Of a stretch of 64,000 bases of DNA, positions 5,781 through 62,509 are shown piece after piece. The notes beneath the pieces were generated by a model. The model was not told the DNA's origin, searched no databases, and worked only from the letters and a program-made list of their open reading frames with translations. The stretch's first letter is position 1. Every line of letters starts with the position of its first letter. This DNA is from Tsukamurella sp. TY48 (GTDB lineage: Bacteria > Actinomycetota > Actinomycetes > Mycobacteriales > Mycobacteriaceae): positions 2,294,001 through 2,358,000 of the forward strand of contig NZ_BPMV01000001.1 of NCBI RefSeq assembly GCF_019656655.1, given 5' to 3'. Both the position numbers and the translations under genes were made by a program.

Positions 5781-7495
5781 GAGATCTCCTCTTCCGCGCG
5801 AACGGGGGCTGAGGTGGAGGCGGCGGGGGCTGCCGCCATGTCCTCCACGGCGAGGTAGGCGAACACCATGGCGGGGCCGATGGTGGCGCCGGGGCCGGCG
5901 TAGGTGTGGCCCATGACGGGGGAGCTGGTGTTGCCGGCGGCGTACAGGCCGTCGATCACGGAACCGTCCTCGCGCTGGACCCGGCCGGCCACGTCGGTGC
6001 GCAGGCCGCCCTTGGTGCCGAGGTCGCCGGGAACCATACGAGCAGCGTAGAACGGCCCGGTGGACAATTCGGCGAGACTGGGATTCGGCTTGTTCCGCGG
6101 ATCGCCGTAGTAGTGGTCGTAGGCGCTCACGCCGCGGCCGAAGTCCTCGTCCCGGCCGGCGCGGGCGAAACCGTTGAACCGCTCGACGGTGCCGGTCAGC
6201 GTGTCGGCGGGCACGCCCATCTTCTCGGCGAGTTCGGCGAGCGTGGTGGCGCGCACCATGCACCCGGACTCGAACCAGCGCTTGGGCAGCGGCTGGCGCG
6301 GCGGCTGGCCGGCGAACAGGTAGCGGTTGCGGTACCGCTGGTCGAAGACGAGCCAGCAGGGCACGTTCTCGCCGGGCCCCTCGCCCTGGCCGTACTCGCC
6401 GCCGTACATCGAGTGCACGGCCTCGACGTACGGGGCGGATTCGTTGACGAACCGCTCACCGTCGGTGTTGACCATCAGGCTGCCGGGTAGCGATCGCTCC
6501 GAGAGGGCGAACCAGGCCATCTTGGGCAGCAGGATCGACGGACCCCACCAGGCGTCGTCCATGAATTCGAGGGCGCCGCCCACGGCCTCGCCGGCGCGGA
6601 TCGCGTCACCGGTGTTCGCGGGCACGCCGTTGGTCCACTCGGTGCCGATGGGCTGGCGCTGGTACTGCGCGCGCATCTCCTCGCTGGACTCGAAGCCGCC
6701 CGCGGCCAGGATCACGCCGCGGCGGGCCGTGAGCTGCACCTGCTTGCCGTCGCGCTCCACCGTGACGCCGGTGATCCGGCCGTTCGCCTCGGTGAGCGCG
6801 ACGAGCGAGGTGTTCAGCCACAGTGGGACGTTCGCGCGCTGCAGGCCCACGCGGAGCGCGGCCACGAGTGCCTGCCCGCGGCCCAGCAGGTGCTTGCCGC
6901 GGGCCTTGGCGGCGTAGAACCGGCCGCCCACCCGGAGTGCCCGGAGGATGCCCTTGGGGTGGCGCATGATCAGGTTGAGCCACTTGAAGTCGGCCTGCGT
7001 GACCACCAGGTTCATCGGCGCCTTGGTGTAGTCGGGCTCCAGGTTCTTCAGCTCGTCGCCGAGCTGGTTGCCGTCGAAGGGCTTCGGCTCGCAGGAGCGG
7101 CCGTGCGCGCGTCCGCCCGGCGCCTCCGGGTAGTAGTCCGAGTAGCCGGGCACCCAGGTGAGTTCCAGGGGGCTCATCCGGTGCAGCATCGAGATCACCT
7201 CGGGGCCGCGATCGATGTAGGTGTCGATCCGCTCCGCCGGGACCACATCGCCGATGATCGAGTGCAGGTACTTGCGGGCCTCCTCGGGGCTGTCCTTGAC
7301 GCCGGCCTTCGCGAGGGCCTCGTTGCCGGGGATCCACACGCCGCCGCCCGAGCGCGCCGTCGAACCGCCGTAGTGCGGCGCCTTCTCCACGATCAGCGCG
7401 CTCAGTCCGCTGTCCGCGGCCTTGAGTGCCGCCGCCATGCCCGCGGCACCGCTTCCCACCACGATCACGTCGTATTCGGTGGCTTCCGCCGTCAT
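5777..7495 (-). CDS. kstD: 3-ketosteroid delta-1-dehydrogenase KstD
   Basis: A 572-residue flavoprotein with an N-terminal dinucleotide fold (VIVVGSGAAGMAAALKA) and the FAD-covering GGSTARSGGGVWIP. The C-terminal signature MGHTYAGPGATIGPAM contains the catalytic Tyr (Y532) and the Gly four residues on, equivalent to Y487/G491 of Rhodococcus KstD1. FVNESAPYVEAVHSMY supplies the other active-site tyrosine. It introduces the C1-C2 double bond in ring A. ATG 7495 follows GAGGAGAGCCG; an in-frame ATG at 7540 lacks such a site. First gene of a five-gene operon with a perfect KstR box about 85 bp upstream. Confidence 0.95.
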   Translation of the reverse strand: MTAEATEYDVIVVGSGAAGMAAALKAADSGLSALIVEKAPHYGGSTARSGGGVWIPGNEALAKAGVKDSPEEARKYLHSIIGDVVPAERIDTYIDRGPEVISMLHRMSPLELTWVPGYSDYYPEAPGGRAHGRSCEPKPFDGNQLGDELKNLEPDYTKAPMNLVVTQADFKWLNLIMRHPKGILRALRVGGRFYAAKARGKHLLGRGQALVAALRVGLQRANVPLWLNTSLVALTEANGRITGVTVERDGKQVQLTARRGVILAAGGFESSEEMRAQYQRQPIGTEWTNGVPANTGDAIRAGEAVGGALEFMDDAWWGPSILLPKMAWFALSERSLPGSLMVNTDGERFVNESAPYVEAVHSMYGGEYGQGEGPGENVPCWLVFDQRYRNRYLFAGQPPRQPLPKRWFESGCMVRATTLAELAEKMGVPADTLTGTVERFNGFARAGRDEDFGRGVSAYDHYYGDPRNKPNPSLAELSTGPFYAARMVPGDLGTKGGLRTDVAGRVQREDGSVIDGLYAAGNTSSPVMGHTYAGPGATIGPAMVFAYLAVEDMAAAPAASTSAPVRAEEEIS

Positions 7496-14678: not shown

Positions 14679-15734
14679 GGAATGGATGAGCGCGCGGCGG
14701 TTCAGGAACGAGGCCGGATCGCCGAACAGCTGGGCGCTGCCGTGCGCACGCTTGAAGTACAGGTGTGCATCGTGTTCCCAGGTGATGCCGATACCGCCGT
14801 GCAGCTGGATCATCTCGCCGGCCACCGCCTCGAAGGCCTCCGAGCAGTAGGCCTTCGCCGTGGCCACCGCGAGCCCGGCATCGGCATCGCCGCGGTCGAG
14901 GGCCTCGCCCGCCGCGTAGGCCGCCGAGCGTGCCGCCTCGACCAGGACGAACATGTCCGCCATCCGGTGCTTGAGGGCCTGGAAGGAGCCGATCGCGCGA
15001 CCGAACTGCACCCGCGACTTCGCGTACTCGACGGTCGCCGCCAGCGCCTGCGCGGCCGCGCCCACCTGCTCCGCGGCGAGCACCGCGCAGGTCACGTCCA
15101 GTGCGTGCGCGAACACGGAGCCCGCGTCGTCGAGCACCACGGTCCCGGTCGCACCGTCGACGGTGACCTCGGCGAGGCGCCGGGTGGGATCCATCGTGGG
15201 TGTGTGCCGCCGCGACGCGGACTCGCCGTCGATCAGGTGCACCACCGTCCGGTCGCCGTCGCCGGCGACCAGCACCAGATCGTCCGCGAGATCGCCGTCG
15301 AGGACGAAGCGCGCCGTCCCGGATACCGAGCCGTCGCGCACGCGCAGCGCCCGGTCGGCGAAATCCTCGCCGGCGAAGGCGACCGCCGCCGTGCGGGTGC
15401 CCGCCGCGAGATCGCCGAGCGTGCCCGCTGCGGGCGTTCCGGCTGCGCTGAGCAGCGTGGTCGCGAATACCGCCGAGCCCAGGAAGGGCGACGGGATCAG
15501 CCGCCGACCGAGCTCCTGCGCCACGGTCTGCAGGGCGCGGACCCCGGCGCCGACACCGTCGAACTCCTCGGGGACGGCCAGCGCCGCGACGCCCACCTGC
15601 TCGCACAGCACCGCCCACAGGTCGGCGTCGTAGCCGGCGGGGGAGTCGATCGCCGCACGCAGTGCCGCGTCCGACCAGCGCCGGTCCAGCACGCTGCGGA
15701 CCGCACTCGCCAGATCGTCGAGTTCCGAGCTCAT
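14676..15734 (-). CDS. fadE33: acyl-CoA dehydrogenase, FadE33-like subunit
   Basis: A 352-residue short-type acyl-CoA dehydrogenase starting MSSELDDLASAVRSVL, with VPEEFDGVGAGV, the C-domain YAKSRVQFGRAIGSFQALKHR and LHGGIGITWEHDAHLYFKRA. It is the third of three consecutive dehydrogenases, and starts overlap stops at each junction (ATGA at 15731-15734). The fadD3-fadE31-fadE32-fadE33 order in M. tuberculosis (Rv3561-Rv3564) and its HIP-CoA role are the basis for the symbol. Which heteromer it forms is inferred. Confidence 0.75.
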   Translation of the reverse strand: MSSELDDLASAVRSVLDRRWSDAALRAAIDSPAGYDADLWAVLCEQVGVAALAVPEEFDGVGAGVRALQTVAQELGRRLIPSPFLGSAVFATTLLSAAGTPAAGTLGDLAAGTRTAAVAFAGEDFADRALRVRDGSVSGTARFVLDGDLADDLVLVAGDGDRTVVHLIDGESASRRHTPTMDPTRRLAEVTVDGATGTVVLDDAGSVFAHALDVTCAVLAAEQVGAAAQALAATVEYAKSRVQFGRAIGSFQALKHRMADMFVLVEAARSAAYAAGEALDRGDADAGLAVATAKAYCSEAFEAVAGEMIQLHGGIGITWEHDAHLYFKRAHGSAQLFGDPASFLNRRALIHS

Positions 15735-16732
15735 CGGGCCACCGCCCGGCCGCGCACCGACTCCAGCACGACGGTGCGGTGCTCGGCCTGGGTGCCCCAC
15801 GCCGATTGCAGCGCCCGGACCTTGGTGAGCCAGATCCCGAGGTCGTGCTCAGCGGTGTAGCCGATGGCGCCGTGCACCTGCAGCGCGGTGCGCGCCGCCA
15901 GGTTCGCCGCATCGGCCGCGGCGACCCGGGCCGCCGAGACGTCCCGCGCCGCATCGAGATCGACACCGGTACCGCTTCCGGACAGTGCGACCGCGGCGCC
16001 CTGCACCAGCGGCGCCGCCAGGTCCAGGCGGGTCACCACATCGGCCAACAGGTGCTTGATCGCCTGGTACTCGCCGATCAGGTGGCCGTACTGCGCACGG
16101 GCCTTCGCGTAGGCGACGGCCTCGTCGAGGAGTCGCCGCCCCGCGCCGAGCGACTGCGCGGCGACACCGAAGGCGCCGAGCAGGAGCGCGCGATCGCGGT
16201 CACCGCTCACGCCGCCCGCGGCTGCGGGCGCCGGGAACAGGCGACGGGTGGGATCCACCGATCGATGCGGACCCGCCTCGGGGGCAGCGGCTTCCGCGAC
16301 AGCGCCGTCCTCCGCGACCACGAATCGCAGGTCCGCCGCATCGGCGTCGAGCAGGTAGGGCGTGCGCGGCGCGAGCGCGACGGTGCCCATCGCCCCGCCC
16401 GCGAGCGCGGGCAGGTGCCGGTCGCCGAGATCGCCCGTGAGCAGCGCCGGAAGCACTGCGATCGATTCGACCACCGGTCCCGGAACGCCGTGGTATCCCA
16501 GGGCTTCGAGCGCGACGGCGAGGTCGGCGGCATCGGCGCCCACACCGTCGTGGACCTCATCGATCGCGAGCGCGGTGACGCCGAGGTCGGCGAGCGAGGC
16601 CCAGATCTTGCGGCCGGGTTCATGGTCGCCGGTGGCCCAGGCCCGCGCGGCGGACACGGTGCCCGCCGACGACAGCAGATCGTTCAGGGACGCCGCGAAG
16701 GCGCGGTTCTCGTCCGACGGTGCGAATCTCAT
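15731..16732 (-). CDS. fadE32: acyl-CoA dehydrogenase, FadE32-like subunit
   Basis: A 333-residue acyl-CoA dehydrogenase beginning MRFAPSDENRAFAASLND, with LGVTALAIDEVHDGVGADA, YAKARAQYGHLIGEYQAIKHL and LQVHGAIGYTAEHDLGIWLTK. Steroid dehydrogenases of this type usually pair with a neighbour into alpha2beta2 tetramers. Overlapping starts and stops on both sides (16729-16732 and 15731-15734) fit stoichiometric production of three subunits. Assignment to FadE32 rests on gene order beside fadD3. Confidence 0.75.
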   Translation of the reverse strand: MRFAPSDENRAFAASLNDLLSSAGTVSAARAWATGDHEPGRKIWASLADLGVTALAIDEVHDGVGADAADLAVALEALGYHGVPGPVVESIAVLPALLTGDLGDRHLPALAGGAMGTVALAPRTPYLLDADAADLRFVVAEDGAVAEAAAPEAGPHRSVDPTRRLFPAPAAAGGVSGDRDRALLLGAFGVAAQSLGAGRRLLDEAVAYAKARAQYGHLIGEYQAIKHLLADVVTRLDLAAPLVQGAAVALSGSGTGVDLDAARDVSAARVAAADAANLAARTALQVHGAIGYTAEHDLGIWLTKVRALQSAWGTQAEHRTVVLESVRGRAVAR

Positions 16733-39901: not shown

Positions 39902-39967
39902 CTGACTTAACTGCGTTAGCCCACAGAATCCTCTCGGGATTCGTGTGGGCTAACGCAGTTAAGTCAG
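39902..39967. repeat. CTTAAC-family palindromic repeat (copy A)
   Basis: Two 24-bp arms (39902-39925, CTGACTTAACTGCGTTAGCC then CACA, and 39944-39967) are perfect inverse complements. An inner GAATCC/GGATTC stem extends the hairpin. It lies between convergent gene ends (39880 and 39992). The core CTTAACnnCGTTAGCCCACA recurs at 55374, 56415, 59234 and 60395. Confidence 0.9.
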
Positions 39968-53925: not shown

Positions 53926-54687
53926 ATGGCGCGACTACAGGGGAAGCGGGCGCTGGTCACGGGCGCCGCACGGGGTCAGGGCGCCGCCGTGGTGCGTCGC
54001 TTCGTGGCCGAGGGTGCGCAGGTGCTGTTCGGTGACGTGCTCGACGAGCAAGGTGCGGCCCTCGCCGACGAGCTCGGCCCCGCCGCGGTGTACCGGCATC
54101 TCGATGTGACCAGCGAGGACGACTGGGCCTCCGCGGTTTCCGCGGTGCAGGAGTCCTTCGGCGGCCTCGACATCCTGGTGAACAACGCGGGCGTGCTGCT
54201 CTTCTCGGCCCTGGAGCAGACCGCGCTGGCCGACTACGAGCGCGTGATCCGGATCAACCAGTTCGGCTGCTTCCTCGGCATGCGCGCCGCGGTCGAGCCG
54301 ATGAAGGCCGCCGGCGGCGGATCGATCGTGAACACCTCCTCGGTCGAGGGGCTCGGCGGCATGCCGTACCTGACCGCGTACACCGCCAGCAAGTTCGCGA
54401 TCCGCGGAATGACCAAGTCCGCCGCGATGGAACTGGGCCAGTACGGAATCCGCGTCAACTCCGTGCACCCCGGGATGATCGACACCGCGATGGTGGCCGA
54501 TGCGCTGGGTGGCAACGAGCCGCCCACCGATTGGCTCAAGCAGCGCCTGCCGATCGGCCGGCAGGGCACCGCCGACGAGATCGCCTCGCTCGTACTGTTC
54601 CTCGCCTCCGATGAGAGCAGCTACAGCACGGGCGCCGAGTTCGTCGCCGACGGTGGCGCCACCGCGACGCACGCACTGAAGCTGTAA
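53926..54687 (+). CDS. 3-alpha(20-beta)-hydroxysteroid dehydrogenase-like SDR
   Basis: A 253-residue SDR: KRALVTGAARGQGAAVVRRF, VLFGDVLDEQGAALADELG, NNAGVLLFSALEQT, NTSSVEGLGGMPYLTAYTAS with YTASK, and DESSYSTGAEFVADGG. The last segment and the overall pattern closely resemble Rv2002 (FabG3, a 20-beta-HSD) and streptomycete 3-alpha,20-beta-HSD. ATG 53926 lies 5 bp after hsd4A. The NTF2-like gene follows its stop with no gap. Confidence 0.83.
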   Translation: MARLQGKRALVTGAARGQGAAVVRRFVAEGAQVLFGDVLDEQGAALADELGPAAVYRHLDVTSEDDWASAVSAVQESFGGLDILVNNAGVLLFSALEQTALADYERVIRINQFGCFLGMRAAVEPMKAAGGGSIVNTSSVEGLGGMPYLTAYTASKFAIRGMTKSAAMELGQYGIRVNSVHPGMIDTAMVADALGGNEPPTDWLKQRLPIGRQGTADEIASLVLFLASDESSYSTGAEFVADGGATATHALKL

Positions 54688-55383
54688 ATGCCTTCGGCTG
54701 CAGCGATCCGCGCGGTCGTCGAGGCCTCGCCGGCCGCCGTCGCCGCGCACGACAAGGCCGCCTGGACGGCGTTGTTCGCCCCGGACGGGCAGGTGCACGA
54801 CCCGGTGGGCTCACGCCCGCAGACCACGTCTGAGGCGATCAGCCGGTTCTACGACATGTTCATCGCGCCGAACCGGATCGTCTTCGACGTGGAGCACGAT
54901 GTGATCGACGGGGGCACCATGATCCGCGATCTCACCGTGCACACCACCATGAGCACCGGTGTCACCCTGCACATCCCGATGCACCTGCGCTACACCGTGG
55001 TCGGTGAGGGGGACACCGCGCGGATCGCGGGGTTGTACGCGCACTGGGAGCTGCGCGGAATGATCGCGCAACTGCTGCGTTCGGGACCGCGTGGTCTGGC
55101 GGCGGGAACCATCCTGGGGCCGAGGCTCTTCCGCACTCTCGGTGTGCAGGCGGCGGCCGGTTTCCTCGCGGGACTGCGCGGCGTCGGGTCGGCGGGCCGT
55201 CGTCGCGCCGTCGAGCTATTGCGTGCGCAAGGGCTCCGAACCGGCAAGGCCCTCGCCGCCGGACCGATGGTCACCGTCACCGTCTTCGACGGCACCCGGC
55301 GCGGCCTCGCCCTCGTCGACTTCACCCCCACCACCCCTACCGCCGCCGGGTCCCCCGCCATCAGGCTCCACTTCCCGACTTAA
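54688..55383 (+). CDS. NTF2/SnoaL-like protein with C-terminal extension
   Basis: A 231-residue protein. Residues 1-125 form an NTF2-like domain (AHDKAAWTALFAPDGQVHDPVGS, ISRFYDMFIAPN, YAHWELRGM) related to the gene at 1802. The remaining 100 residues are Arg/Leu/Gly-rich and end in a Thr/Pro-rich tail. The ATG directly abuts the previous stop. The stop TAA (55381-55383) is the TTAA core of an inverted-repeat arm, so the present C-terminus (RLHFPT) is set by the repeat and may be a truncated or altered end. Confidence 0.65.
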   Translation: MPSAAAIRAVVEASPAAVAAHDKAAWTALFAPDGQVHDPVGSRPQTTSEAISRFYDMFIAPNRIVFDVEHDVIDGGTMIRDLTVHTTMSTGVTLHIPMHLRYTVVGEGDTARIAGLYAHWELRGMIAQLLRSGPRGLAAGTILGPRLFRTLGVQAAAGFLAGLRGVGSAGRRRAVELLRAQGLRTGKALAAGPMVTVTVFDGTRRGLALVDFTPTTPTAAGSPAIRLHFPT

Positions 55384-55421
55384 CGTCGTTAGCCCACACC
55401 CCGTCCTGGGGAAACACCTGC
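55374..55421. repeat. left arm of inverted repeat flanking DUF559 gene (copy B)
   Basis: The first 25 bp (55374-55398, CCCGACTTAACGTCGTTAGC then CCACA) are the exact complement of 56415-56439. The match continues with about six mismatches to 48 bp, including the conserved CGTCCTGGG. It carries the stop codon of the preceding gene. Confidence 0.9.
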
Positions 55422-55436
55422 ATCGATTGCTAGTGA

Positions 55437-56339
55437 CTAGGCGGTAGCTCGGCCGTCGCGCTCCGCCATCGCGGCGCGGACCCGCCGGATCAACACGTCC
55501 GGACGATGCGCGAGCGGTCCGGCGGTCACGATGATCAACCGCCACCCGTCGGCCTGCAGGGCGTTCCACTTCTCCGCGTCGTGCGCATGCTGCTGCGCGG
55601 AGCGGTGATGCGCGCCGTCGTACTCCACCGCCACCTTGAGCTCCGGATCAGCGAGGTCGAGGTAGTAGGCACCGTCGAACACCGGCACCTGCGGGACCAT
55701 CGTGACCAGGCCGACGCGGTGAAGAGTGAGGCGCGCGAAGGACTCCCACGGTGATTCGGCCCGCTCGTCCGCCTCGTCGAGCACGGCCCGCACCCGAGTC
55801 CCGCGCCACCACTCGCGCCGGTCGAGCTCGCGCTCGATCGCGGCGCGCGTGGTCATCGCCGGGCGCCGGACCCACGCCGGCCGGGTGGCCGTGGCCGGAC
55901 GCCCGTGCACGCGCAGGCACTGATCTATGGCCGCGATCGCCTCATCCCCGGGGGTGTATCGCGCCAGGTCGATGGCGGTCCGGACGGCGGACGTGTACCG
56001 CAGCGCACCGTCGACCACGATCTCGGAGGGTTCCAGCGCGGCCATCCGGCAGATGACGCCGCGCCGCCGGATCTGCCGCGGCCCCATCACCTCGACGAGC
56101 GTCCGGGAGCCGGCCATCGTGTGCCCGTGCAGCCGGGCCGCGGACCAGCCGCACAGCGTGGACTCGGGGTACAGCCGCAGCATCGCGGTGGCGAGATGAC
56201 CGATGTCGGGCTGCACGCCGCGCCGCACCCGGACGCCGCCGGTGACGCAGCGGTGACTCCGCTCGACCGCGTAGCGTCCCTCGGCGGCGATCAGGTCCCG
56301 CGACAGGAACACCTCGCGCTCGAATTCCTCCATACCCAT
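55437..56339 (-). CDS. DUF559/AbiEi-like protein with PD-(D/E)xK-type nuclease domain
   Basis: A 300-residue protein. The N-terminal half (RCVTGGVRVRRGV, STLCGWSAARLHGH, ALRYTSAVRTAIDLAR) resembles the AbiEi-like domain found upstream of DUF559. The C-terminal domain (about 215-290) has YLDLADPELKVAVEYDGAHH and WNALQADGWRLIIVT, the Vsr/PD-(D/E)xK endonuclease-like DUF559 core with Asp and Glu candidates for metal binding. ATG 56339 is chosen; GTG 56348 is possible. No partner toxin or methylase is adjacent. It is bracketed by 48-bp inverted repeats, an unusual context for an otherwise common actinobacterial gene. Confidence 0.8.
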   Translation of the reverse strand: MGMEEFEREVFLSRDLIAAEGRYAVERSHRCVTGGVRVRRGVQPDIGHLATAMLRLYPESTLCGWSAARLHGHTMAGSRTLVEVMGPRQIRRRGVICRMAALEPSEIVVDGALRYTSAVRTAIDLARYTPGDEAIAAIDQCLRVHGRPATATRPAWVRRPAMTTRAAIERELDRREWWRGTRVRAVLDEADERAESPWESFARLTLHRVGLVTMVPQVPVFDGAYYLDLADPELKVAVEYDGAHHRSAQQHAHDAEKWNALQADGWRLIIVTAGPLAHRPDVLIRRVRAAMAERDGRATA

Positions 56340-56391
56340 TGGACGCACCGGCGCCGGATTCGGCTCCGAACCGGACTTGGTTGCACTTCGG

Positions 56392-56439
56392 GTAGCTGTT
56401 CTCCCAGGACGAGATGTGGGCTAACGACGTTAAGTCGGG
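56392..56439. repeat. right arm of inverted repeat flanking DUF559 gene (copy B')
   Basis: 56415-56439 is the exact 25-bp complement of 55374-55398. Bases 56392-56414 continue the similarity. It lies just upstream of the DUF559 start and 24 bp downstream of the iclR stop. Confidence 0.9.
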
Positions 56440-56462
56440 ACAGGGGTGGGGCGGGCCGGGGG

Positions 56463-57221
56463 TTACGACGGGGCGGCGGAGGCCACGCGGGAGAGGGTGA
56501 GGGCTGCGGCGCGGACGGCGGGGGCCACCCGCTCCGGGCGCATGCGGTTGCTCCAGCCGGCCACGGAGACGGCGGCGACCGGGGCACCGTCGGCGTCGAG
56601 GATCGGACAGGCCACGCAGACCGTCCCGTTCCCGGACTCCTCGCGTTCGTAGGCCACCCCCTCTTCGCGGATCCGCTGCAGCTGCCGGCGCAGGATCACG
56701 GGGGAGGTGATGGTGCGGGTGCTCAGGCGGGGCAGGCCGGTGGCGAGCACCGGCGCGAGGGCCTGCTCGCCGGCGAAGGCCAGGATCGCCTTCCCCACGC
56801 CGGTGGCGTGCGCGGGCATGCGGCCGCCCACCCGGGAGGCCAGATCGGGAGCGTCCGGACCGGGCAGTACCTCGAAGTAGACGACCTCGGTGCCCTCCAT
56901 CCGTGCCATGTGGACGGTGTTGCGGGTGGCGGATCGCAGGTCGGCGAGCACCGGTCGCGCGGCATCGACGAGATCGCGGTGCCCGGTCGCGAGCTGGCCG
57001 ATCTCGAACAATCGAAGTCCCAGTCGCAGTGATGTTCCCGAGCGTTCGAGTAGGCCCGCGTCCACCAGGTTCCCGGTCAGACGGTGCGCGGTCGACTTCG
57101 GTAGACCCGTGCGGCGGGCCAGCTCGGACACCCCGAGTGCACCGTCGCCCGGGCGATAGGCGGCGAGCAGCGCGGCGACGCGCGCGACCACCGCACCGTC
57201 GTTCCGCTCAGCGGGACACAT
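56463..57221 (-). CDS. IclR-family transcriptional regulator
   Basis: A 252-residue IclR regulator. It has winged helix-turn-helix [20 protein letters not shown] (residues 30-50), linker [10 protein letters not shown], and an effector domain with [18 protein letters not shown] and [27 protein letters not shown] 57221 is 40 bp from the divergent hsaG start. Since that gap has no KstR box, this protein is the likely local regulator of hsaGF, responding to an aldehyde or small acid. Confidence 0.85.
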
Positions 57222-57261
57222 GCATTGAGTGTGGCAGCCACCGCACCGCATCGTGGGGGTT

Positions 57262-58170
57262 ATGACGGAGAAGGTGACCGCGGCCATCGTCGGCCCGGGG
57301 AACATCGGCACGGACCTGCTGGCCAAGCTACGGCGCAGCGAGCACGTGGACGTGAAGTACATGGTGGGCGTGGACCCGGAATCGGACGGCCTCAAGCGGG
57401 CCGCCGAACTGGGACTGCAGACCTCGGCGGAGGGCGTCGATTGGCTGCTCGCGCAGCCGGAACCGCCGCGCATCGTCTTCGAGGCGACCTCGGCGAAGGC
57501 GCATCTGACGAACGCGCCGCGGTACGCCGAGGCCGGGATCGTGGCGGTCGACCTGACGCCGGCGGCGGTGGGGCCGCTGACCTGCCCGGTGGTGAACCTC
57601 GAGGACAAGATCGACGCCCCGAACGTCAACATGATCACCTGTGGTGGGCAGGCCACCATCCCGATCGTGCACGCCGTCAGCCGGATCACGCCGGTGAGCT
57701 ACGCGGAGATCGTCGCCTCGGTCTCCTCCCGGTCCGCCGGACCCGGCACCCGTGCCAACATCGACGAGTTCACCGAGACCACGGCGCGGGCCATCGAAGA
57801 GGTCGGTGGCGCCGCCAAGGGCAAGGCAATCATCATCATCAACCCTGTCGAGCCGCCGATGATCATGCGGGACACGGTGTTCTGTGCCATCGACCCCGAT
57901 GCCGATCGGGACGCGATCACCGCCTCGATCGAGCAGATGGTGGCCGATGTGCAGGTGTACGTGCCCGGATACACCCTCAAGGCGCCGCCGCAGTACGACG
58001 AGCCCCGACCCGGCTGGGAGGGCAAGGCGCGCGTCGCCGTGTTCCTGGAGGTCGCGGGCAACGGCGACTACCTGCCCACCTACGCGGGCAACCTCGACAT
58101 CATGACCGCGGCCGCCGCGCGCGCGGGCGAACTCATCGCGCAGCGAATCCTGAACGGAGTGAACGCATGA
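57262..58170 (+). CDS. hsaG: acylating (propion)aldehyde dehydrogenase HsaG
   Basis: A 302-residue acylating aldehyde dehydrogenase: [46 protein letters not shown] with nucleophile Cys and [19 protein letters not shown]. It converts propanal from HsaF to propionyl-CoA by channelling. ATG 57262 is preceded by GGGGG. Its stop overlaps the hsaF ATG (ATGA). Confidence 0.92.
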
Positions 58171-59216
58171 CCGGGATCAACGGCGCCCTGTGGAGCGACC
58201 CGAACCGCGACGTGCGCATCGTCGACACCTCGCTGCGGGATGGCAGCCACGCGATGGCCCACCAGTTCACCGAGCAGAACGTGCGCGACACCGTGCGCGC
58301 GCTCGACGATGCGGGTGTCTCGCTCATCGAGGTCACGCACGGCGACGGCCTGGGCGGGTCGACCTTCAACTACGGCTTCTCGCTGGTCGACGAGCGCAAG
58401 CTGATCGCCGCCGCCGTGGACGAAGCGCAGCAGGCGAAGATCGCCGTGCTCATGCTCCCCGGCCTCGGCACCGTCGAGGACATCCGGGTCGCGGCCGATC
58501 TCGGGGCGGGCGCGCTGCGCATCGCCACCCATTGCACCGAAGCCGATGTCTCGATCCAGCACTTCGGCGCCGCACGGGATCTGGGACTGGAGACCGTGGG
58601 CTTCCTCATGCTCTCGCACATGTCCACGCCCGAGGCGCTGGCGAAGCAGGCCCGGATCATGGCCGATGCCGGCTGCCAGTGCGTGTACGTGGTCGATTCC
58701 GCCGGGGCACTGATCCTGGAGGATGCGGGCGAGCGCGTGGCCGCACTCGTCGCCGAGCTCGGCGAGGACGCGCAGGTGGGCTATCACGGGCATCAGAACC
58801 TGAGCTTCGGCGTGGCCAACTCGGTGCTCGCCTACCGCGCAGGGGCCAAGCAGATCGACGGCTCGCTCCTGGCGCTCGGTGCGGGCGCGGGGAACTCGCC
58901 CACCGAGGTGCTGGCGGCGACCTTCGAGCGGCTCGGAGTACGCACCGGCACCGATAAGGACGCCCTGATGGCGGCCGCGGAGGACGTGGTGAAGCCGTAC
59001 ATCACGCGCCTGCCGGTGATGGACCGCAGCTCGATCGTCCAGGGCTATGCCGGGGTGTACTCCAGTTTCCTGCTGCACGCCGAGCGGGCGGCGGACCGGT
59101 ACGGCGTTCCCGCGCACGAGATCCTGTACGAGTGCGGTCGCCGCGGCTACGTGGGCGGCCAGGAGGACATGATCATCGCGATCGCGGTCGAGATGTCCGC
59201 GGCGCAGAAGGTCTAA
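58167..59216 (+). CDS. hsaF: 4-hydroxy-2-oxohexanoate aldolase HsaF
   Basis: A 349-residue class II aldolase of the DRE-TIM family: [19 protein letters not shown] (Arg-Asp metal/base site), [23 protein letters not shown] and [15 protein letters not shown] (His metal ligands). It cleaves 4-hydroxy-2-oxohexanoate to pyruvate and propanal. It forms a complex with HsaG, consistent with the 4-bp overlap. The operon ends at a CTTAAC-family hairpin. Confidence 0.93.
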
Positions 59217-59233
59217 ACGCCTACCCCGGACAC

Positions 59234-59296
59234 GACTTAACAGCGTTAGCCCACACGGCGTCCTGAGGAGACGTCTGCTGCTAACGCTGTTAAGTC
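59234..59296. repeat. CTTAAC-family palindromic repeat (copy C)
   Basis: GACTTAACAGCGTTAGC (59234-59250) and its exact complement (59280-59296) are separated by 29 bp. It lies between convergent hsaF (ends 59216) and fdxD (ends 59306). The outer arm continues CCACACGGCGTCCTGAGGAG, resembling copy B. Confidence 0.88.
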
Positions 59297-59305
59297 AGTA
59301 CGGTG

Positions 59306-59494
59306 TCAGTCTTCGAGGCGGATCGCCTGCGTGGGGCACTGACTGATCGCGTACTCCACGTCTTCCTTGTCCGCGTCGGTGAGGCCCTCGTCGGTGGCTT
59401 CGGCGAAGCCCTCGTCGTTGACCTCGAAGATGTCGGGCCGGATCCCTTCGCACACACCGAAACCCGTGCAGGCATCGCCGATGATGATCTTCAT
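59306..59494 (-). CDS. fdxD: single [3Fe-4S]-type ferredoxin FdxD
   Basis: A 62-residue ferredoxin with Cys9, Cys15 (ACTGFGVC) and Cys53 (SQCPTQAI). The position that would complete a [4Fe-4S] site (CxxXxxC) is Phe12, indicating a three-cysteine cluster typical of P450 redox partners. FdxD lies beside hsd4A/fadE26 in M. tuberculosis; here it follows hsaE by 18 bp under its KstR box. A likely electron donor to CYP125 or another oxygenase. AAGGAGAACCTC precedes the ATG. Confidence 0.88.
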   Translation of the reverse strand: MKIIIGDACTGFGVCEGIRPDIFEVNDEGFAEATDEGLTDADKEDVEYAISQCPTQAIRLED

Positions 59495-59512
59495 GAGGTT
59501 CTCCTTCGGGTG

Positions 59513-60298
59513 TTACGGGGCGAGGACGGCGGTCACGGAGCCGAGCGGCCCCATATCGGCGACGACGGTGTCGCCCGGTCGGACGGATTCGGCCCGCGTC
59601 ATCGATCCGGGCAGGACGACGTGGCCGGGTTCGAGCGTGGTCCCCAGCGGTCCGACGGTGTTCGCGAGCCACACCAGGGCGTTGATGGGGGAGCCGAGGA
59701 CGGCGCCACCGGTACCGGTGCCCACCTGGTTGTTGCTGATCCAGAAGGTGCAGCCCACCTCACGCAGATCGAGGGCGTCGATGCGGGTGGGCTTGCTGCC
59801 GAGGACGACCCCGCCGGACGAGGCGTTGTCGGCCACCGTGTCGACGATCGAGATGTTCCAGTCGCGGATCCGCGAATCGACCACCTCCAGTGCCGGGACC
59901 ACGTAGTCGATGGCGCGGATCGCATCCGCGACGGTCACGCCGGGGCCGCGCAGCTCGCGCCCCAGGATGAAGCCGATCTCCGGTTCGATCCGCGGCTGCA
60001 GCCACCCCGACGCGTCGATCGGAAGGTGTTCGAGGTGGAACATCGACGCCGTCAGGTGGCCGAAGTCGGGCTCGAAGACGTTCATCTGACGCTGCATCGC
60101 CAGCGAGGCCAGGCCCACCTTGTGGCCCTTGACCGCGTCGCCCGCGGCTTCCCAGCGGCGCACCTGCTCCTGCTGGATCCGGTAGGCGTCGGTGATGGTG
60201 GCCTCCGGGAACGTGCCGATGATCGGCTCGATCGGGGTTCCGGTGGTGTACGCGCCCAGCAGGGCGTCGGCCGCTGCGGAGACGGCGGATTCATCCAT
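59513..60298 (-). CDS. hsaE: 2-hydroxyhexa-2,4-dienoate hydratase HsaE
   Basis: A 261-residue hydratase of the MhpD/fumarylacetoacetase group: IQQEQVRRWEAAGDAVKGHK, RIEPEIGFILGRELRG with metal-binding Glu, VPALEVVDSRIRDW and SSGGVVLGSKPTRID. It hydrates the dienoate from HsaD to 4-hydroxy-2-oxohexanoate for HsaF. ATG 60298 lies 10 bp from a perfect KstR box, again compatible with leaderless mRNA. It is unlinked from hsaGF, unlike the hsaEGF order in M. tuberculosis. Confidence 0.9.
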   Translation of the reverse strand: MDESAVSAAADALLGAYTTGTPIEPIIGTFPEATITDAYRIQQEQVRRWEAAGDAVKGHKVGLASLAMQRQMNVFEPDFGHLTASMFHLEHLPIDASGWLQPRIEPEIGFILGRELRGPGVTVADAIRAIDYVVPALEVVDSRIRDWNISIVDTVADNASSGGVVLGSKPTRIDALDLREVGCTFWISNNQVGTGTGGAVLGSPINALVWLANTVGPLGTTLEPGHVVLPGSMTRAESVRPGDTVVADMGPLGSVTAVLAP

Positions 60299-60308
60299 GC
60301 CCCGATGG

Positions 60309-60322
60309 TAGAACACGTTCCA
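60309..60322. promoter_or_regulatory. KstR operator upstream of hsaE-fdxD
   Basis: TAGAACACGTTCCA matches TNNAACNNGTTNNA exactly, 10 bp upstream of the hsaE ATG. Confidence 0.88.
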
Positions 60323-60394
60323 TTGCTGCGCGGCGAAACCGCTCGCTACCGATGGGTAGCTAGCAGTGTGTGCAGGCGAATCGCCTGGTGGCGG

Positions 60395-60417
60395 TGTGGG
60401 CTAACAACGTTAAGTCA
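60395..60417. repeat. CTTAAC-family single arm (copy D)
   Basis: TGTGGGCTAACAACGTTAAG then TCA is a right-hand arm with no complementary arm immediately beside it. Its inward extension (CGCCTGCAC, CTGCTAGCTAC in complement) resembles the inner side of the left arm at 55374. Together with copy C it flanks fdxD-hsaE in inverted orientation. Confidence 0.75.
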
Positions 60418-60424
60418 GAGGGGG

Positions 60425-62509
60425 TCAGTCGCGGGGGAGGCCGAGGAGGCGTTCGGCGGCCACGTTGCGGAGGATCTGGGAGGTGCCGCCGGCGATGGAG
60501 AGGCAGCGGGTGAGGAGGAATTCGTAGCGCTCATCCTCAGGATCCTCGGGGCCGGCGAGGGCACCGTCGGGACCCAGGCAGAGGAGCCAGGCCTCCGCGA
60601 CCGCCTGACGGTGCTGCACGCCCACCAACTTGCGCACGCTCGACGCCGGGCCCGGGTCCTGTCCGCCGACGCTGGCGATCACGGCACGCAGATCGAGCAG
60701 GGCGCACGAGGCGGCCTCGGTGATCAGGCCGCCGAGCTCGGCATCGTCGATCTCGGGGCGGTCGATCAGTGCCTCCAGCCGGGCGCCGAGGCCGCTGCCG
60801 CTCATCGCCACTCGCTCGTTGGCGAGCGTGGTGCGCGCCAGCCGCCAGCCGCCGTTCACCTGCCCGACGACGCACTCGTCGGGCACGAAGACCTCCTCCA
60901 GGAAGACCTCGTTGAACCGCTCGTCGCCGGTGATCTCGCGCAACGGCCGGATCTCGATCCCGGGGGAGCGCATATCGACCAGGAAGTAGGTGATGCCCTT
61001 GTGTTTCGGAGCCTCGGCATCGGTGCGAGCCAGGCAGATCGCCCAATCGGCGGCGTGTGCCAGCGAGGTCCACACCTTCTGCCCGGTGAGCAGCCAGCCG
61101 CCCTCGGTGCGGACGGCACGCGTGCGCAGCGCCGCCAGATCGGATCCGGCCTCCGGCTCGCTGAACAGCTGGCACCAGGTGATCTCGCCCAGCAGCGTGG
61201 GCCACACGAAGCGCTCCGCCTGCTCCGGGGTGCCGTGTTCCAGCACCGTGGGCGCGGCCCACGCCCCGATCACCAGCGGCGGCCGCTCGACCCCCGCGGC
61301 ATCGAGCGCCGCGTCCAGCACGATCTGCTCCGCCGGACCCGCGCCGCGGCCGTAGGGCGGCGCCCAATGCGGCACCAGCAGACCGGATTCGGCCAGGGCG
61401 CGGCGACGTTCGCCCTCGGGAAGCGCGGCGATCGCCTGCGCCTGCGCGGCGGCACCCGCGTGGTCGCCCTCCACCGCGTAGTCGTAGGTGCGGCGCACCC
61501 CGCGGCGCGCGAGTTCGGCGGCCCGGCGCCGCAGACCGTCGGTGCCGCCGAGCAATTGGCGCAGGGCCACGGCGCGCCGCAGGTACAGGTGCGCGTCGTG
61601 CTCCCAGGTGAAGCCGATGCCACCGAGCACCTGGATCGCGTCCTTGGCGTTCGCGACCGCGGCGTCCACCGCCCCCGCCGCCGCGACCGCGGCGGCCAGT
61701 TCGTGCTCGGCACCGGTTCCGGCACTACGCGCCGCGTCCCAGGCCAGCGCGGCGGCCTGCTCCGCGCGACACAGCATGTCGGCCGTGATCTGCTTGATCG
61801 CCTGGAAGGAACCGATCGGCTTGCCGAACTGCACGCGCACCTTCGCGTACTCGGCGGCGGTGCGCAGGGCCCACGACGCCACGGCCGACGCCTCCGCGGC
61901 CGCGAAGGTGCCGAACCAGGCGCGCGCGGACTCCGCGGTGAGCCCGGGAACCTCCGTATCCTGCGCGAAGACCGGCTCCTGCAGGCGGATCCGGCCCAGG
62001 GGCCGCGAGGCGTCCAACGCCTCCTGCGGTTCGACGACGACGCCGGGATGCCCCGGGGGCAGCAGGTGCCAGGTGCCGGACGGGGACGCCACCAGCAGGT
62101 GCGATCCGGGGGTCGCATCGACGGCGAGGGCCCCGTCGCCACCGAGCACCAGCGCCGCGCGCGCCTCGCCCGCCGCCAGGGACTCACGTACCGCCGCCAG
62201 CCGGTCGGTGCCGCGGAGCAGGTCCTCCAGCAGGGCCGCCACCGTGACGGTCCCCGAGACGGGCCCCGGCGCGAGCGCCAGCGTGGCCGCCTCGACCGCC
62301 GCGGCCGCGTCCTCGGCGGTTCCGCCCATGCCGCCGAGCTCCTCCGCCAGCGTGATGCCGAAGACGCCGATCTCGGCGAGCCCGCGCCAGACCTTCTCGG
62401 CGGCGCCGGAATCACCCGACCGAACCGCGTCGATCGGATGGGCGCGCTCGGCCCAATCCCGGATCGAATCGGACAGCGCGAGCTGGACATCGGTGACGGC
62501 GAGGGCCAC
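60425..62509 (-). CDS. fadE34: fused acyl-CoA dehydrogenase FadE34 (ChsE3-like)
   Basis: A 694-residue protein containing two acyl-CoA dehydrogenase units in tandem. Residues 1-340 include YAKVRVQFGKPIGSFQAIKQ and LGGIGFTWEHDAHLYLRRA. Residues 350-694 include QLFSEPEAGSDLAALRTRA, LTGQKVWTSLAHAADWAICLA and the C-terminal IAGGTSQILRNVAAERLLGLPR. FadE34 (Rv3573c, 711 residues) is the known single-chain equivalent of the steroid alpha2beta2 dehydrogenases and acts on C24/C22 side-chain CoA thioesters. ATG 62509 is 21 bp after the mce gene stop, so it may be co-transcribed with the mce operon. Confidence 0.87.
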   Translation of the reverse strand: MALAVTDVQLALSDSIRDWAERAHPIDAVRSGDSGAAEKVWRGLAEIGVFGITLAEELGGMGGTAEDAAAAVEAATLALAPGPVSGTVTVAALLEDLLRGTDRLAAVRESLAAGEARAALVLGGDGALAVDATPGSHLLVASPSGTWHLLPPGHPGVVVEPQEALDASRPLGRIRLQEPVFAQDTEVPGLTAESARAWFGTFAAAEASAVASWALRTAAEYAKVRVQFGKPIGSFQAIKQITADMLCRAEQAAALAWDAARSAGTGAEHELAAAVAAAGAVDAAVANAKDAIQVLGGIGFTWEHDAHLYLRRAVALRQLLGGTDGLRRRAAELARRGVRRTYDYAVEGDHAGAAAQAQAIAALPEGERRRALAESGLLVPHWAPPYGRGAGPAEQIVLDAALDAAGVERPPLVIGAWAAPTVLEHGTPEQAERFVWPTLLGEITWCQLFSEPEAGSDLAALRTRAVRTEGGWLLTGQKVWTSLAHAADWAICLARTDAEAPKHKGITYFLVDMRSPGIEIRPLREITGDERFNEVFLEEVFVPDECVVGQVNGGWRLARTTLANERVAMSGSGLGARLEALIDRPEIDDAELGGLITEAASCALLDLRAVIASVGGQDPGPASSVRKLVGVQHRQAVAEAWLLCLGPDGALAGPEDPEDERYEFLLTRCLSIAGGTSQILRNVAAERLLGLPRD

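Follow-up and report, generated by a model that had tools for sequence, protein, structure and literature searches.

In REPtrons and TIRtrons, as their published descriptions present them, a dedicated DNA-processing gene is flanked by copies of a palindrome or inverted repeat, solitary copies of which are scattered in intergenic positions, different enzymes and different repeats being involved (PMC8266576, PMC3733652). Here we describe a unit that follows the same logic with an unrelated enzyme, a nuclease of the DUF559 family in place of an HUH enzyme, in a 64,000-nucleotide stretch of DNA from Tsukamurella sp. TY48 (the window; its 4.37-Mb genome is designated G000). The gene stands between inverted arms of a dispersed palindrome family, termed F1, and comparisons within a set of 16 Tsukamurella genomes and beyond it revealed a group of such cassettes (palindrome-DUF559 gene-palindrome, ∼1.0–1.1 kb) in which hairpin and nuclease are paired, which have been gained, lost and exchanged at fixed sites, and whose palindromes also occur dispersed as solitary copies. 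We hold with moderate confidence that these are mobile cassettes with homing-like spread, the nuclease being the probable driver.

As in a REPtron, the gene is bracketed by copies of a palindrome that also occurs elsewhere in its genome, in families F1 and F2 of Tsukamurella and in a Leifsonia family (four hairpins in its genome, of which two surround the gene; three other genomes have none), whereas for a mycobacterial family only the two flanking hairpins were found in G064 and G065. The enzymes are nevertheless distinct. A REP (repetitive extragenic palindrome)-associated tyrosine transposase (RAYT) is an HUH tyrosine enzyme acting with a GTAG-tagged hairpin, whereas the cassettes combine a Vsr/EDxHD-type nuclease that has an AbiEi-like half with longer palindromes (∼60 bp); of 11 cassette hairpins, two, each of family F3, have GTAG or CTAC within 8 nt of a palindrome foot, and neither window hairpin does. 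The window protein does not qualify as an HUH tyrosine (IS200/IS605-like) transposase: Pfam scans of this protein and seven relatives listed DUF559/MTES_1575 and no transposase family. With insertion sequences and their miniature inverted-repeat derivatives the cassettes share inverted ends (∼70 bp in F1), a single gene and small end derivatives, but they differ in having no DDE or HUH transposase match, no visible target-site duplication and, in the other subfamilies, ends that are whole palindromes.

The two halves of the protein have separate counterparts. On the nuclease side these include Vsr and the NGO0050-type DUF559 nucleases; Vsr functions in mismatch repair, alongside a cytosine methylase. 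The fold of the catalytic domain resembles that of I-Bth0305I, an EDxHD homing endonuclease, from which the cassettes differ on three counts: the protein has an AbiEi-like other half, its gene stands free among bacterial genes, and a copy of the putative target flanks that gene on each side. AbiEi antitoxins (6y8q, and Rv2827c, 1zel) differ from the window cassette, where the AbiEi-like part is fused to a nuclease and, the unit holding one gene only, no AbiEii partner lies beside it. A Vsr-like DUF559 protein of Caulobacter has been examined for a role in mismatch repair, in an article whose main text contains no word formed on ‘palindrom' (PMC12907096). No link between a DUF559 gene and palindromes was found in open-access titles and abstract openings, a search to which the subscription literature was largely external. 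DUF559 proteins are widespread and mostly without a known role; the cassettes offer a testable one, a nuclease paired with its own named DNA partner.

The window cassette and its relatives

The initial annotation had proposed that the gene is enclosed by inverted arms of a genome-dispersed palindrome, and both elements of that description were borne out. The two 47-nt arms show 89% complementarity, which is perfect over the outer core, and the F1 core occurs in G000 at 20 places with up to 3 mismatches (19 with up to 1), compared with 1 for the reversed control pattern. The hairpins that it had put near 39902 and 59234 are indeed self-contained, and the left arm does supply the stop codon of the preceding, SnoaL-like gene, in the frame ACT TAA; the arm at 60395 is F1-family sequence as supposed, yet it is not alone, belonging to a solitary element end of ∼75 bp. 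Visual inspection of the displayed junctions, where the flanks have diverged, likewise revealed none of the target-site duplications that the annotation had failed to see. Coordinates are collected in Table 1.

Table 1. Positions of the F1 cassette, its parts and the solitary F1 copies (window coordinates unless a locus is named)
Feature	Position	Strand	Size	Remarks
Complete F1 cassette (ACTTAAC...GTTAAGT)	55378..56435		1,058 bp	Counterpart units in 7 other Tsukamurella genomes
Left terminal arm	55373..55419	+		Gives TAA stop codon of SnoaL-like gene
Right terminal arm, inverted	56394..56440	-
DUF559 nuclease gene	55437..56348	-	303 aa	Sole gene of the 1,058-bp unit
AbiEi-like N-terminal part	55767..56318	-		Residues 11-194
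Vsr/EDxHD-type nuclease domain	55452..55766	-		Residues 195-299
Solitary F1 hairpin	39905..39964		60 bp
Solitary F1 hairpin	59235..59295		61 bp
Solitary F1 element end	60340..60415	-	about 75 bp
Counterparts of solitary F1 end	L193 about 15660-15757; L196 about 6632-6710

Seven orthologues of the gene (64–69% identity), one in each of seven other Tsukamurella genomes, all carry both arms, in units of 1,075–1,089 bp whose inverted end similarity extends ∼70 bp inward. The annotation had stated that relatives with the gene and without the arms would make the pairing coincidental. This is not the case for the seven orthologues; F1 arms are absent around the next relatives, at 59% (G007, on a short contig) and 55% (G008) identity, and the latter is flanked on each side by a palindrome of another kind. 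A search with the window protein gave matches in 50 of 61 genomes of the order, and F1 arms occur in 11 of the 61, all within the 16 Tsukamurella. The C-terminal part of the window protein passes the Pfam cut-off for DUF559 (22.9 versus 20.6 bits), and its nuclease domain conserves E202 (at least 90%), D231, H248 and D257, presumably the catalytic E, D, H and D of the EDxHD motif. DUF559 genes of F1 cassettes are under purifying selection, with a pairwise dN/dS (ratio of non-synonymous to synonymous substitution rates) of 0.14–0.35 over 28 pairs of the eight F1 orthologues.

Folded as single-stranded DNA, the hairpins at 39905–39964 and 59235–59295 reach −36.1 kcal/mol (z −13.3) and −22.6 kcal/mol (z −6.2), respectively, compared with no fold for the F1 cassette ends alone (z −0.9 and −0.2). 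Neither hairpin is followed by a T-run on either strand, and a scan allowing only loops of 3–8 nt found no intrinsic terminator in 54500–61000. In several F1 hairpins of G000, that at 39905–39964 included, the stem is extended by a C-rich tract on the left and a G-rich tract on the right, and these hairpins look as if they had been inserted within older gene-end palindromes.

Pairing of palindromes with nucleases

Hairpin sequence tracks the protein more than the site. Protein identity correlates with hairpin identity among the 26 Tsukamurella DUF559 genes for which there is a hairpin (Mantel r 0.796; none of 2,000 permutations as high). Where proteins are less than 62% identical, hairpin identity at the same site (0.41, 15 pairs) is close to the background value for different sites (0.36, 269 pairs), while proteins at least 65% identical have similar hairpins both at the same site (0.78, 17 pairs) and at different sites (0.60, 14 pairs, range 0.31–0.85). 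The many natural protein-palindrome pairs form a ready set for studying how nuclease specificity changes.

A general linkage of DUF559 genes to palindromes, which the initial annotation had suggested counting, is evident against control open reading frames (ORFs), different subfamilies having different palindromes; other DUF559 paralogues likewise have palindromes of their own. Two similar hairpins enclose 14 of 37 Tsukamurella DUF559 genes, whereas no such pair encloses any of the 231 control ORFs, which were 220 aa or longer; taken separately, an upstream hairpin accompanies 23 of 37 genes versus 12 of 231 controls and a downstream hairpin 17 of 37 versus 27 of 231. The eight F1 genes score negative in this count because F1 ends are half-hairpins, in contrast to the F2, F3b and F5 cassettes, which carry a whole palindrome on each side. 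The palindrome upstream of the gene, when there is one, mostly begins ∼90–135 bp ahead of the coding match.

The association extends beyond the genus. In a sample of 50 named Actinomycetota loci, two of them from Tsukamurella, flanking inverted repeats reach a score of at least 16 in 22 of 50 versus 3 of 186 control ORFs, and of at least 25 in 9 of 50 versus 0 of 186. Similar hairpins lie on both sides in 10 of the 47 loci testable for hairpin pairs versus 0 of 178 controls; the ten are from Gordonia, Nocardia (two), Mycobacterium (two), Cellulomonas, Paraoerskovia, Geodermatophilus, another member of the Geodermatophilaceae and Pseudarthrobacter. Neither side has a hairpin in 21 of the 47, and the association is therefore either not universal or has decayed past the threshold. 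For the mycobacterial family of G064 and G065, G066 has three hairpins, one immediately downstream of its DUF559 gene, and a lone arm, and G068 has two arms, one on each side of another DUF559 match.

Allele states and solitary copies

Comparison of insertion sites in close relatives, also proposed by the initial annotation, yielded empty, hairpin-only and full alleles at identical sites, so that gain and loss can be measured directly. Site S5 was found in all 16 genomes: three are empty, three have one hairpin, seven a cassette, one an apparently decayed cassette and two unrelated inserts. The empty alleles (G008, G011 and G012) have 32–55 bp between the reference points. Single hairpins are of family F5 in G003 and G004 and of F3 in G001, and the G004 hairpin shares 56 consecutive nucleotides with one of the hairpins that flank the G002 cassette. 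An F5 cassette is present in G002, G006, G013 and G014 (in the last, only the upstream hairpin is over threshold), a cassette with F3b-type hairpins in G005, G010 and G015, and one hairpin with DUF559 fragments in G009. The F5 and F3b-type proteins at S5 are 51–62% identical while their flanks are 83–94% identical, and within the F3b-type group the G010 protein is 57–58% identical to the other two. F5 proteins also occur at another site, in G001 and G015, where they are 75–78% identical to S5 proteins of G002, G006 and G014 and 66–67% identical to that of G013.

At site S2, compared in 15 genomes, an F2 cassette is present in G005, G006, G011 and G012 and one F2 hairpin in G002, whereas eight genomes have no F2 sequence, some having other palindromes instead. 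Inserts without DUF559 occur at both sites, of 1 kb at S2 in G000 and G010 (L275, L276) and of 2.1 and 2.6 kb at S5 in G000 and G007 (L279, L280), and S2 and S5 may therefore be insertion hot spots.

F1 cassettes themselves are mostly at one position. Six of the seven in other genomes (G001, G005, G009, G010, G012 and G015) lie next to one amidase gene (Pfam Amidase), which we take for gatA; the G001 unit is reversed relative to the amidase-side flanks, and the seventh, in G014, lies past a neighbouring 1-kb gene. The G000 unit, between the SnoaL-like gene and an IclR gene, has flanks without homology to those of the other seven. At the amidase-side site G000 instead has a 61-bp F1 hairpin composed of ∼38 nt of one cassette end and ∼21 nt of the other; among the genomes surveyed there (all but G007, G011 and G013), G002, G003, G004, G006 and G008 have no F1 sequence. 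Conversely, none of seven relatives has an F1 arm at the SnoaL-like/IclR site of G000. Among six relatives inspected at this site, an F3-family hairpin is present in G001, G003, G006 and G014 and no hairpin in G004 and G005, and the SnoaL-like stop codon that F1 supplies in G000 is supplied by F3 in G003, G006 and G014. The cassettes are a possible origin for dispersed gene-end hairpins, which can provide stop codons.

Solitary copies vary between genomes in a similar manner. The F1 hairpin at 59235–59295 (site A) is also present in G003, G005 and G014, while G001, G002, G004, G006 and G009 have diverged palindromes, other palindromes or none. Compared by eye with the window hairpin, that of G004 (L190 13395–13515) is altered in both arms with pairing retained and has a loop like that of G005, which suggests selection on hairpin structure. 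The solitary ∼75-bp end at 60340–60415 is also present in G001 and G014 and absent from G002–G006 and G009. With its inner GCTACC...GGTAGC-like palindrome it represents a small unit of another kind, found at one site in three genomes; its absence is clean in five. Five further lone arms of G000 outside the window comprise, by eye, four hairpins with an outer stem of ∼15 bp and one arm without a clear partner. F2 arms, those of cassettes included, occur at 101 places (up to 2 mismatches) in 10 of the 16 Tsukamurella genomes, with none for the controls. Non-cassette F1 arms (up to 1 mismatch, counted by hand) number 17, 8, 10, 3, 12, 9, 4 and 8 in genomes with an F1 gene versus 0, 0, 0, 2, 5, 0, 0 and 1 in those lacking one (U 62 of 64, P=0.0008, without correction for kinship). 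As F1 arms occur in genomes that have no F1 gene, hairpins can exist without it.

How the cassettes may spread

The cassette structures, the palindrome-protein pairing and the allele states support the suggestion of the initial annotation that this is a minimal transposon-like unit, or a nuclease paired with a putative DNA substrate family of its own, in loose analogy to REP/RAYT pairs. In the homing-like model that we favour, a dimer of the protein would recognize its ∼60-bp palindrome and break the DNA there; host repair would then copy the cassette from a cassette-bearing allele, and recombination or slippage between the two palindromes could delete the gene and leave a solitary hairpin. 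I-Bth0305I, whose catalytic fold is similar, is described as dimerizing on a target that approaches 60 bp in length (PMC3943268), which is the size of these palindromes; this likeness and the purifying selection on the genes also count in favour of the model. It has two weak points: the whole palindromes that flank F2, F3b and F5 cassettes would leave a cassette open to cutting by the nuclease that it encodes, and solitary hairpins at ectopic positions require more than allelic homing. Against the suggestion of the initial annotation, solitary hairpins are present in genomes without the gene, and the four other Pfam-detected DUF559 places of G000 have no F1-family bracketing repeat.

The main rival, which we consider unlikely, is a REP/RAYT-like process in which the nuclease acts on a single-stranded or extruded hairpin and relocates hairpins, along with the gene that they enclose, to further gene ends; solitary copies would then be true non-autonomous mobile units. 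The dispersed F1 copies in G000 (19 arms) and F2 copies elsewhere, the strong folding of the hairpins, the excess of non-cassette F1 arms in genomes with the F1 gene and the presence of a solitary 75-bp end where five relatives have a clean site are all consistent with such a process. To our knowledge, however, nucleases of the Vsr/EDxHD type have no strand-transfer chemistry; copy numbers are low, and the F1 cassette ends do not self-fold.

Second among the rivals, and also improbable in our estimate, is a passive cassette: the palindromes would serve at gene ends as bidirectional terminators or form repeat islands there, recombining independently, and the DUF559 gene, perhaps a defence gene, would be cargo in homologous recombination. 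Several hairpins do lie at gene ends, where they supply stop codons, the G004 hairpin at site A differs in both arms with its pairing kept, and the AbiEi resemblance is to a phage-defence antitoxin. However, both window hairpins lack a T-run, though terminators without one could exist, and this explanation does not account for subfamily-specific palindromes that follow proteins between sites. That the palindromes are autoregulatory operators of the AbiEi-like protein, duplicated by chance, is very improbable: AbiEi proteins do repress through inverted repeats and the upstream palindrome mostly begins ∼90–135 bp ahead of the coding match, but downstream copies near the stop codon, distant solitary copies and hairpin-only alleles at cassette sites would not be expected.

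More broadly, and more tentatively than we favour homing-like spread, we suggest that the cassettes may represent a widespread class of selfish elements in actinobacteria, unrelated to the HUH REPtrons, whose AbiEi-Vsr fusion nuclease would both recognize a 60-bp palindrome of its own and propagate it. Protein and palindrome would co-diversify into many pairs, mutually specific and in competition for the same gene-end sites, and much of the large, uncharacterized DUF559 complement of Actinomycetota may be of this kind.

By eye and without statistics, a CCTGCGG-like loop motif (the complement and close variants such as CCTGGGG included) is common to different palindrome families, being carried by F1, F3, F3b and F5 hairpins (window 59235–59295; L047, L217, L220) and by Williamsia loci L116 and L118. 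This common loop might be a recognition or cutting signal.
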